Origin: Rodentibacter pneumotropicus DSM 21403
GTDB lineage: Bacteria > Pseudomonadota > Gammaproteobacteria > Enterobacterales > Pasteurellaceae
Direction: 5' to 3'
Assembly: GCF_000379905.1 (NCBI RefSeq)
Contig: NZ_KB904047.1
Location: 1 to 47,594 of the forward strand
DNA: 47,594 nucleotides
Below, piece by piece: positions 13,229 to 37,707 of this stretch. Both the position numbers and the translations under genes were made by a program. Under the pieces are notes generated by a model. The model did no database searches and had not been told where the DNA came from. It saw nothing but the letters and a program-made list of their open reading frames with translations. Each line of letters opens with the position of its first letter. The first letter of the stretch is position 1.

Positions 13229-13246
13229 ACCGCCAATTTCAACCTT

Positions 13247-13341
13247 GGAAGGTCGTCATCTCCGGTGAGGTGGCAGGACTTCAAATCCTGTTGAGGACGC
13301 CAGCGTTCTCGGGTGGGTTCGACTCCCATGACTTTCCGCCA
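13247..13341 (+). tRNA. selC: tRNA-Sec (anticodon UCA)
   Basis: A 95-base selenocysteine tRNA. It has the unusual 8-bp acceptor stem of bacterial tRNA-Sec (GGAAGGTC paired with GACTTTCC, one G-U), the anticodon TCA at 13281-13283 in the loop CTTCAAA, a long extra arm (about 13290-13312), the T loop GGTTCGACTCC and an encoded 3' CCA. It decodes in-frame UGA as selenocysteine with SelA and SelB, which are encoded divergently next to it. In E. coli selC is unlinked to selAB, so the clustering is notable. Confidence 0.98.
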
Positions 13342-35688: not shown

Positions 35689-36672
35689 ATGCCTCAAAAT
35701 CAACCGCACTTTTATCGTGGTCGCTTCTCCGTTGCACCAATGCTGGATTGGACGACACGTCATTGCCGCTATTTTCATCGCCAATTTTCTAAACATGCAC
35801 TACTTTATACGGAAATGGTCACCGCACCGGCAATTATCCATGCCAAATATGATCTCTTGGGTTTTGATCCCCGTGAAAATCCCGTTGCGCTACAATTAGG
35901 CGGAAGCGATCCCGAACAGCTCAAATATTGTGCAAAACTGGCAGAAGATCGGGGGTATCATGAAATCAATCTTAATGTAGGTTGTCCTTCCGATCGCGTA
36001 CAAAACGGAATGTTTGGTGCGTGTTTAATGGCAAAAGCGGATTTGGTGGCGGAATGTGTCGAAAAAATGCAACAAGCGGTGAATATTCCTGTAACGGTTA
36101 AAACCCGTATCGGTATTGATGATCTCGACAGTTACGAATTTTTATGTGATTTTATCGAAAAAGTGCAAGATAAAGGCTGCCATGAATTTATTATTCACGC
36201 ACGTAAAGCATGGCTTTCCGGATTAAGCCCGAAAGAAAATCGTGAAATCCCCCCTCTTGATTATGAACGCGTCTATCAGTTAAAGCGCGACTTTCCCCAT
36301 TTGAAAATGGTCATTAATGGCGGAATCAAAACCGTGGAAGAAATGAAACAACATTTGCAATTTGTGGATGGGGTGATGGTAGGACGTGAAACCTATCAAA
36401 ACCCGAGCTTACTCGGCACGATCGATCAAGCTTTGTTTTATGCCAATATGCCGATTGTTACCCCACGAGAAGCCGTGTTAGCAATGCTGCCTTATATTGA
36501 ACAACAACTGAGCCAAGGTGTTTACCTCAACCATATTGTTCGCCATATGCTGGGAACATTTCAATGTTGTAAAGGCGCACGCCAATGGCGTCGTTATTTA
36601 AGTGAAAACGCATTCAAACAGGGAGCGGGGATTGAAGTTATTGAAACAGCGCTTAGTTTCGTTGAAAATTAA
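35689..36672 (+). CDS. dusA: tRNA-dihydrouridine(20/20a) synthase DusA
   Basis: A 327-residue FMN enzyme reducing uridines 20 and 20a in the tRNA D-loop. The barrel start [39 protein letters not shown] (with the catalytic Cys, about 101-119) and the DusA-specific [20 protein letters not shown] (about 170-189) separate it from DusB and DusC. An uptake signal overlaps codons 5-9. Start chosen at the ATG at 35689. Transcribed alone, divergent from rpsL, and followed by a CRP site. Confidence 0.96.
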
Positions 36673-36682
36673 AAGTGAGAAA

Positions 36683-36698
36683 TGTGACGCATTTCACA
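36683..36698 (+). promoter_or_regulatory. Perfect-core CRP site upstream of a small ORF
   Basis: TGTGA-CGCATT-TCACA matches all ten core CRP positions. Its centre (36690.5) is 60 to 62 bp before the start predicted from the -10 TATAAT at 36738-36743, the class I activation distance. It begins 10 bases after the dusA stop. Confidence 0.75.
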
Positions 36699-36737
36699 AA
36701 TTTCAATTTTTTTCTTTCTATCCATCCTCACTTATAC

Positions 36738-36743
36738 TATAAT
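36738..36743 (+). promoter_or_regulatory. -10 box of the small-ORF promoter
   Basis: A perfect TATAAT with no convincing -35 hexamer 16-18 bp upstream, a pattern typical of activator-dependent promoters. The start would be near 36750-36752, just ahead of the ribosome-binding site AGGGAG. Confidence 0.65.
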
Positions 36744-36772
36744 CGGTCTCAAGATTTGAGAGGGAGCTCATT

Positions 36773-36874
36773 GTGTTTCTTGACGTATCAAGTCTTACAC
36801 TTCTTGGTATTTCAAGTTTACTCCCCCTGTATTTATGTATAAATCTCCGATTTAATCCTGTTTTGTTTTTTTGA
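36773..36874 (+). CDS. Small hydrophobic ORF, 33 aa, CRP-linked, unknown
   Basis: Not recognised. From GTG at 36773 the frame gives 33 residues, beginning MFLDVSSLTLLGISSLLPLY and continuing through a hydrophobic stretch to a polar NLRFNP turn and LFF. The bulk of it (about 5-23) could be a single membrane helix. An AGGGAG ribosome-binding site lies exactly six bases before the GTG, and a perfect CRP site and TATAAT lie upstream, so the transcript is probably real. No T-rich terminator is obvious directly downstream on this strand. Alternatives are an sRNA or dual-function RNA of which this ORF is incidental. Confidence 0.55.
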   Translation: MFLDVSSLTLLGISSLLPLYLCINLRFNPVLFF

Positions 36875-36911
36875 ATTGGTCTTAACTGCGTTAGTGGTTT
36901 GATATGGAAGT

Positions 36912-36947
36912 TAAAAAAAACAAAAGTGCGGTTAGAAATAGCCGCAC
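36912..36947 (-). terminator. Terminator of glpG-glpR
   Basis: On the minus strand GTGCGGCTA-TTTC-TAACCGCAC (9-bp stem with one G-T pair) is followed by TTTTG and eight T. It follows the glpR stop, and one arm carries the uptake-signal core. Confidence 0.82.
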
Positions 36948-36954
36948 CTTCTTA

Positions 36955-37707
36955 CTAACATATCACTAATTTTGTTTTAACACTCTGTAAGTATTGGCTG
37001 ATAGGAAACGGCACTTCATCTGTAAATAAGTATTCCACATCCTCCAATTCCCCTAAACGTACAATCGCTTGTCGGGTAAATTTTGAATGGTCCGTCACTA
37101 ATAACGTTTGGCGTGAACTCTCCATAATAGCCCGTTTCACTTGTACTTCATGGTAATCGTAATCCAACAAAGAACCATCCGCATCAATAGCACTGATACC
37201 AAGAATGCCAAAATCTAAACGAAACTGAGAAATAAAATTTACGGTAGCCTCACCAATAATCCCCCCATCTGTCCGTAGCGAACCGCCCGCCATAGTAATA
37301 TCAAAACTTTCATTTTGACGGAGCAAATGGGCTGCATTCAGATTATTCGTTACAATGCGTAAAGATTTATGACCTAGTAACGCATTTGCCACAGCTTCCG
37401 GCGTTGTACCAATGTCAATAAATAATGATGCGCCATTTGGAATAAGTTTTACCACTTCTTGGGCAATACGGTTTTTTTGTGAAGAAAATAACTGCTTACG
37501 ATCAGCATAATCGGAATTTTCTGCAGAAGAAGGGGAAGCAGCCCCTCCGTGATGACGACGAATAAAATTCAATTCTGCAAGAACATTTAAATCCCGTCGG
37601 ATTGTTTGCGGACTTACATCCAATCGGGTAACTAAATCTTCTGTACTTAAATAACCATGCTGATTGACAAGCTCCATAATTTTTTGATGGCGAATGGACT
37701 GTTTCAT
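36955..37707 (-). CDS. glpR: Glycerol-3-phosphate regulon repressor GlpR
   Basis: A DeoR-family repressor (250 aa) that binds glp operators and is released by glycerol 3-phosphate. The N-terminal helix-turn-helix (about 3-58) contains LSTEDLVTRLDVSPQTIRRDLN and HHGGAASPSS; the sugar-phosphate domain has LFIDIGTTPEAVANALL (about 94-110), GGIIGEATVNFISQFRLDFG and VTDHSKFTRQA (about 206-216). Nearly the length of E. coli GlpR (252). It lies 27 bp after glpG, the usual pairing, and ends just before a terminator. Confidence 0.95.
   Translation of the reverse strand: MKQSIRHQKIMELVNQHGYLSTEDLVTRLDVSPQTIRRDLNVLAELNFIRRHHGGAASPSSAENSDYADRKQLFSSQKNRIAQEVVKLIPNGASLFIDIGTTPEAVANALLGHKSLRIVTNNLNAAHLLRQNESFDITMAGGSLRTDGGIIGEATVNFISQFRLDFGILGISAIDADGSLLDYDYHEVQVKRAIMESSRQTLLVTDHSKFTRQAIVRLGELEDVEYLFTDEVPFPISQYLQSVKTKLVIC

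Follow-up and report, generated by a model that had tools for sequence, protein, structure and literature searches.

A predicted CRP-activated structured RNA beside glpR in Rodentibacter and the Haemophilus parainfluenzae group, with possible CsrA-binding hairpins

The gap between dusA and glpR in Rodentibacter pneumotropicus DSM 21403 contains promoter-like elements, which raises the question whether these serve a small protein or a non-coding RNA. The gap was analysed within a stretch of 47,594 nucleotides (assembly GCF_000379905.1, contig NZ_KB904047.1), which will be referred to as the window. Its upstream neighbour is dusA, encoding a dihydrouridine synthase with a Pfam Dus domain (35689..36672, + strand), and the convergent neighbour is glpR, encoding a DeoR-type regulator with a Pfam DeoR domain (36955..37707, − strand); both names rest on the Pfam domains and on the original prediction. 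The latter, made from the letters of the window, had proposed a CRP-controlled gene for a hydrophobic product of 33 residues or a small RNA. The elements on which it was built were all confirmed at their positions, with the CRP core TGTGA-CGCATT-TCACA found by direct sequence check at 36683-36698, a TATAAT, an AGGGAG at 36761-36766 separated by six bases from a GTG at 36773, and an open reading frame for 33 amino acids. Aligning the gap with its relatives, as the prediction had proposed, demonstrated conservation of the promoter and of the predicted transcribed region, but not of the reading frame. By alignment and covariance models, we predict a non-coding RNA of ~205 nt (36751..36955, + strand), with a 5′ end inferred from the −10 element and a conserved block and a 3′ end placed at the terminator; for H. 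parainfluenzae, the predicted length is ~290 nt.

The predicted promoter comprises a CRP site (AAATGTGACGCATTTCACAAAT, 36680..36701, + strand) with all ten core bases and its centre at 36690.5, which is 60.5 bp upstream of the modelled RNA 5′ end in the window and corresponds to a class I position. The −10 element TATAAT (36738..36743, + strand) lacks a good −35 partner, as originally noted, and the promoter is missing from the list of a sigma-70 scan. For comparison, 19 loci were used, comprising the ten of Rodentibacter, eight from the eleven genomes of the H. parainfluenzae group and one from a third genus (G118). The distance from the CRP centre to the modelled RNA start varied only between 60.5 and 62.5 bp, the class I pattern (near −61.5), and that to the −10 element between 47.5 and 48.5 bp in 19 of 19 loci. 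The −10 element retained five or six of its six consensus bases throughout, and the ten core CRP bases (TGTGA-N6-TCACA) were intact at 18 loci, the one decayed core belonging to a Rodentibacter genome (G011). The sequence between the CRP site and the −10 element diverges among the 19 loci. In the three further H. parainfluenzae-group loci outside this set (L049, L056 and L057), the CRP core was intact as judged by eye. Since the promoter is absent from the covariance models R1 and R2 described below, its conservation represents independent support for a gene at this place. The comparison thus supports the CRP-controlled transcript of the original prediction, and we infer class I activation of this promoter by CRP.

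The 33-codon reading frame starting with GTG (36773..36874, + strand) was rejected as a gene. Its start codon is GTG in six of the ten Rodentibacter loci and GTA in the other four, one of which additionally carries a 5-nt deletion that cuts the frame, and the length of the frame ranges from 20 to 33 codons among the six GTG species. Variable columns fell on the first, second and third codon positions 3, 4 and 5 times in the six GTG species and 4, 6 and 9 times in nine species, so that a third-position excess is slight at most. A Pfam search of the 33-residue product yielded no match, and by eye no such reading frame was apparent in the related RNAs of the H. parainfluenzae group. The hydrophobic protein was consequently not sustained, as neither start codon nor frame is kept across the Rodentibacter loci. 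The AGGGAG, originally interpreted as a ribosome-binding site, may instead represent the GGA loop of the first RNA hairpin.

The whole gap was matched in 10 of 15 Rodentibacter genomes including that of the window, and the covariance models find the same ten. These have kept the CRP core (9/10), the −10 element, the 5′ block GATTTGAGAGGGA and the hairpin-forming blocks. In the remaining five (G008, G010, G012, G013 and G014), glpR is present, the RNA was not found beside it and neither R1 nor R2 yielded a match. Model R1, a covariance model built without the promoter from the 5′ 82 nt of the ten Rodentibacter sequences, was run on 140 genomes of the family. In addition to its training genomes, it matched 10 of the 11 H. 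parainfluenzae-group genomes (E 1.6e-6 to 6.6e-5), each match being preceded by a full CRP core, and several genomes more weakly. Among the latter is that of the third genus (G118), whose match (E 0.067) is not significant alone and carries a full CRP core, the −10 sequence TATAAC and matching helices. Two further models were trained on some of the RNA-bearing genomes, making their E-values partly circular: R2 added the one H. parainfluenzae-group genome that R1 had missed (G130, E 1.1e-5), and R3, which contains the promoter, recovered 22 genomes at E 9.2e-18 or better, with the next match at 0.0013. In total, the RNA was found in 22 of 140 Pasteurellaceae genomes, 10 from Rodentibacter, 11 from the H. 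parainfluenzae group and one from the third genus. At least five of the eight weak R3 matches inspected were, by eye, promoters of protein genes. Searching 394 genomes of the order with R2 under strict filters gave six matches at E ≤ 0.01, all in Rodentibacter or the H. parainfluenzae group. Twenty glpR 3′ regions, taken from the five Rodentibacter genomes without a match, from eight of the ten genomes of G118's genus and, in seven cases, from other genera, contained neither a CRP core with at least nine of ten bases nor an R2 match below E 1.1. A pattern scan of genome contigs produced 32 matches, five in Rodentibacter, five in Haemophilus and 22 in others. Three of the Haemophilus matches were inspected and are identical in sequence to loci of the H. 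parainfluenzae group; the one inspected among the 22, from Vibrio, showed by eye no CRP core just upstream. As a separate observation, three loci of G118's genus (L192, L196 and L197, at about 1501-1600) have a CRP core before a gene with a ribosome-binding site containing five Gs (AAGGGGGA), the complement of the RNA's CCCCC stretch; their genomes gave no R1 or R2 match to the RNA at E below 0.6.

The gene order dusA, RNA, glpR is found in the ten Rodentibacter loci, and glpR adjoins the RNA in 21 of the 22 RNA-bearing genomes. On the other side, a gene reading by eye as trmL-like precedes the RNA in the two H. parainfluenzae-group loci (of 11) with translated flanks (L048 and L052), and in G130 the upstream gene reads, likewise by eye from its translation, as mazG-like. 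In G118, the RNA is located away from glpR, between genes that by eye read as plsB and rsmG. After this copy (L059, 1501-1579), the only one separated from glpR, comes sequence that by eye resembles the final part of a porin gene. In the window, RNA and glpR meet at an inverted pair of AAGTGCGGT-type sequences (36924..36949, unstranded), which we take to be uptake sequences and which probably act as a shared terminator; it has a long T run on the − strand, the glpR side, and a weaker tail, CTTCTTACTA, on the + strand, the RNA side.

The structure of the predicted RNA consists of three elements followed by the terminator. Hairpin 1 (UGAG-AGGGAG-CUCA, 36757..36770, + strand) has an ANGGAN hexaloop and shows compensatory changes, and hairpin 2 (CUUGA..UCAAG..CUUGG..UCAAG, 36779..36816, + strand) can be drawn as one long hairpin or as two short ones. 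The C-rich stretch ACTCCCCC (36820..36827, + strand) can pair with the GGGAG of hairpin 1 in a competing fold. Hairpin 3 (UUGAU-AUGGAA-GUUAA, 36899..36914, + strand), again with an ANGGAN hexaloop, shows covariation and lies in a block kept as far as the H. parainfluenzae group. For hairpin 1 together with the nested form of hairpin 2, 93.1% of the cells were paired in 17 sequences, and 7 of 18 pairs had changed on both sides, compared to a mean of 2.6 after shuffling (0/500 shuffles reached the observed value) and 1-2 for slid structures. Further pair types were no more frequent than in shuffles (165/500), and the same structure with hairpin 2 in its local two-hairpin form gave five two-sided pairs (2/500 shuffles). 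For hairpin 3 in 18 sequences, 92.2% of the cells were paired, 17 cells had changed on both sides against a shuffled mean of 7.6 (0/500) and the covariation score was 0.612 against 0.349 (0/500), whereas neither the two-sided pairs (3 vs 2.5) nor the pair types (6 vs 6.6) exceeded the shuffles. These shuffle controls ignore relatedness, and related sequences can outdo shuffles without structure; the slid controls were far lower. Compensatory changes in helices, by which a structured non-coding RNA is recognised, are accordingly found in the aligned sequences, which also supports the small-RNA option of the original prediction.

Folding of complete RNAs gave a less uniform picture. The window RNA is more stable than its shuffles (z −2.69), with part of this contributed by the terminator hairpin. 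In its best whole-RNA fold, GGGAG is base-paired to CUCCC, as is the U run to the A run, and the hexaloops of hairpins 1 and 3 have a closing-pair probability of 0.00, the GGA of hairpin 3 being 0.75 unpaired. In the other Rodentibacter RNAs, the hexaloop closing pairs reached at most 0.08. For ten H. parainfluenzae-group RNAs, the corresponding values lay at 0.95-0.98 in a middle hairpin and ranged over 0.02-0.98 in hairpin 3 and 0.02-0.42 in hairpin 1; in G130, hairpin 3 gave 0.12. The pairing between loop and C-rich stretch was also considered as a conserved pseudoknot, and the excess complementarity in 17 sequences was not significant (32/300 shuffles as good).

Taken together, the conserved promoter, the model matches preceded by CRP cores, the covarying helices and the unconserved reading frame lead us to conclude that the gap very probably harbours the gene of a CRP-activated, structured non-coding RNA of ~205 nt. 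An Rfam scan of the window gave no over-threshold match for this RNA; in its region only sub-threshold matches were obtained, to families other than McaS, CyaR and Spot 42, all three of which have Rfam models. CyaR and Spot 42, CRP-controlled small RNAs of enterobacteria, resemble the predicted RNA in this control and differ in that its region has no Rfam match over threshold. The same difference applies to McaS, a CsrA-binding small RNA of E. coli that is activated by CRP and shares with the predicted RNA its small size, at least two GGA sites and CRP control. In the whole window, the single Rfam match above threshold was a tRNA-Sec gene (13246-13341), and no other tRNA was found.

How might such an RNA act? 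The hexaloops of hairpins 1 and 3 may point to CsrA. In a review (PMC7652899), the SELEX consensus for CsrA is given as RUACARGGAUGU, with AC and GU paired in most ligands, and the RsmE site as an ANGGAN hexaloop. Under a strict rule modelled on these sites, both GGAs of the window RNA are presented in ANGGAN hexaloops (UGAG-AGGGAG-CUCA and UUUGAU-AUGGAA-GUUAAA). Of the 11 H. parainfluenzae-group RNAs, eight carry three GGAs, each of them in such a loop; these eight are close relatives with five distinct sequences, which counts slightly against the CsrA reading. Two others of the group have two hexaloop GGAs, and G130 has one of five. The other Rodentibacter RNAs have one hexaloop in seven cases and none in two. 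G002 and G130 have lost the GGA of hairpin 1, and the RNA of G118, with a single GGA in 300 nt, lacks a strict hexaloop. Two hexaloops were reached by 6 of 20,000 shuffles of the window RNA (G000) and three by 0 of 20,000 shuffles for each of the two RNAs from the H. parainfluenzae group examined in this way. When 256 hexaloop classes were compared, ANGGAN was the sole top class in the three RNAs of that group so analysed, tied with three others in G000 and tied at one in G009. As background, 46 other fetched loci (182,628 bases), excluding the locus that holds the RNA itself, contained 14 ANGGAN hairpins, and none of 1118 windows of 290 nt held two or more; this cleaned count speaks in favour of the CsrA reading. 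On the + strand of the window, hairpins 1 and 3 are the sole ANGGAN pair within 200 nt. In the loop of hairpin 3, the A and the GGA are invariant in 18 of 18 sequences and the second base is U, G or C, as would be expected of a protein site. On the − strand, two ANGGAN hairpins about 30 nt apart were observed in the interior of glpR (37095-37125), the only such pair within 200 nt on that strand, which might be a CsrA site in the glpR mRNA or due to chance.

Other counts were less favourable. The RNAs contain 1-5 GGAs each, compared to 22 in E. coli CsrB. With a looser hairpin rule, the excess was weak or absent: out of 400 shuffles, 38 did as well as G000, 13-31 as well as the eight RNAs with three hexaloops, 55-220 as well as the remaining nine from Rodentibacter and 115-286 as well as the remaining three from the H. 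parainfluenzae group. E. coli CsrB scored nine on the loose rule (1/400 shuffles) and 0 on the strict rule in spite of its 22 GGAs; the strict rule therefore fails this positive control and models the SELEX and RsmE type of site, not CsrB.

We suggest the following mechanism. Cyclic AMP-CRP would bind at about −61 and bring in RNA polymerase at a promoter that has a good −10 element and lacks a −35, so that the RNA would be synthesized once preferred sugars are exhausted; via CRP, the link to carbon use in the original prediction is plausible. Transcription would end at the inverted uptake-sequence hairpin common to glpR. The GGA hexaloop hairpins, two in the window RNA and three in most RNAs from the H. 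parainfluenzae group, would be presented to CsrA, and the predicted RNA would thereby lower free CsrA, or else act as a CsrA-bound RNA itself. CsrA binding is the best single mechanism that we can offer and is favoured tentatively, because GGAs are few, the looser count is weak and the Rodentibacter folds do not favour the hairpins.

The main alternative, which we consider possible though rather unlikely, is a CRP-activated base-pairing small RNA, perhaps working with Hfq and not involving CsrA, in which conserved parts would pair with target mRNAs, candidates being GAUUUGAGAGGGA, the hairpin 2 loop and the C-rich stretch. Well-known CRP-controlled small RNAs do pair with mRNAs, and the 5′ block GATTTGAGAGGGA ranks with the best-conserved segments of the Rodentibacter RNAs. 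Against this alternative, the loop of hairpin 3 has an invariant GGA preceded by a variable base, as would be expected of a protein site, and the + strand tail CTTCTTACTA is weak for a terminator. It is improbable that the RNA does both, pairing with mRNAs and binding CsrA through two GGA hairpins in the manner of McaS. According to PMC7652899, the base-pairing small RNAs McaS and GadY contain two or more GGA motifs and bind CsrA, and the window RNA has two GGAs; the comparison with McaS and GadY, made by Rfam scan, gave no match over threshold. A cis effect on glpR, exerted where the two genes converge on their common terminator by opposing transcription or by antisense pairing, is very improbable. 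It is suggested by the convergent glpR adjoining the RNA in all but one genome; against it, none of the conserved helices falls within glpR, transcription of glpR should already stop at the T run behind its hairpin, before the RNA body, and the G118 copy lies away from glpR. Finally, the 33-residue membrane protein is scarcely credible, its open frame with a Shine-Dalgarno-like AGGGAG and a GTG in the window and the likeness of its first 16 residues among the six GTG species being outweighed by GTA in place of GTG at four of ten loci, a cut frame, varying length, an unclear codon-position bias and the lack, by eye, of such a frame in the H. parainfluenzae group.

A csrA gene was found in all 29 genomes searched, 15 from Rodentibacter, 11 from the H. 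parainfluenzae group and three from the third genus. The CsrB model (RF00018), which detected the E. coli positive control, gave no match over the cut-off in 140 Pasteurellaceae genomes under strict filters; below it, a single fragment scored 18.3 bits, in G131. Proteins resembling UvrY were matched in 120 of 140 genomes, with a best identity of 38% among the matches listed; no close UvrY was found in the family among these matches, and we read them as other response regulators.

By sequence, the predicted RNA resembles CsrB, CsrC, RsmY and RsmZ in having GGAs in potential hairpin loops, which fit the ANGGAN loop of RsmE type (PMC7652899). It differs from CsrB in having 1-5 GGAs instead of 22 and in giving no match with the CsrB model. 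RNAs of the CsrB type are under BarA-UvrY control according to PMC4682653, whereas here a CRP site is located at the promoter. In Salmonella, as reported in PMC7591399, CRP-cAMP acts on the CsrA antagonist CsrC and lowers it, proposedly via Spot 42; with a CRP site in activating position at the promoter, a CRP-activated antagonist would therefore represent the opposite wiring. Among the literature matches listed, which cover open-licence papers, none was found to describe this RNA or any Csr small RNA from Pasteurellaceae. In their accessible text, the papers on small RNAs of Actinobacillus pleuropneumoniae (PMC4986893 and PMC9577009) and Histophilus somni (PMC10204968) refer to CsrA only in general, as a gene or in a reference, and a Pasteurella multocida paper (PMC5698555) mentions csrA expression in biofilms, with no Csr small RNA term found in the portion available.

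Pasteurellaceae thus appear to have kept CsrA without a recognised CsrB or a close UvrY, and it is conceivable, if still doubtful, that a new small RNA family wires CsrA directly to cAMP-CRP in Rodentibacter and the H. parainfluenzae group. Among the literature found, the predicted RNA would represent the first candidate CsrA antagonist for Pasteurellaceae, where no CsrB was detected, and it defines a testable CRP-linked small RNA family in bacteria with few described small RNAs. If the proposal is true, sugar starvation itself would make the antagonist of CsrA.
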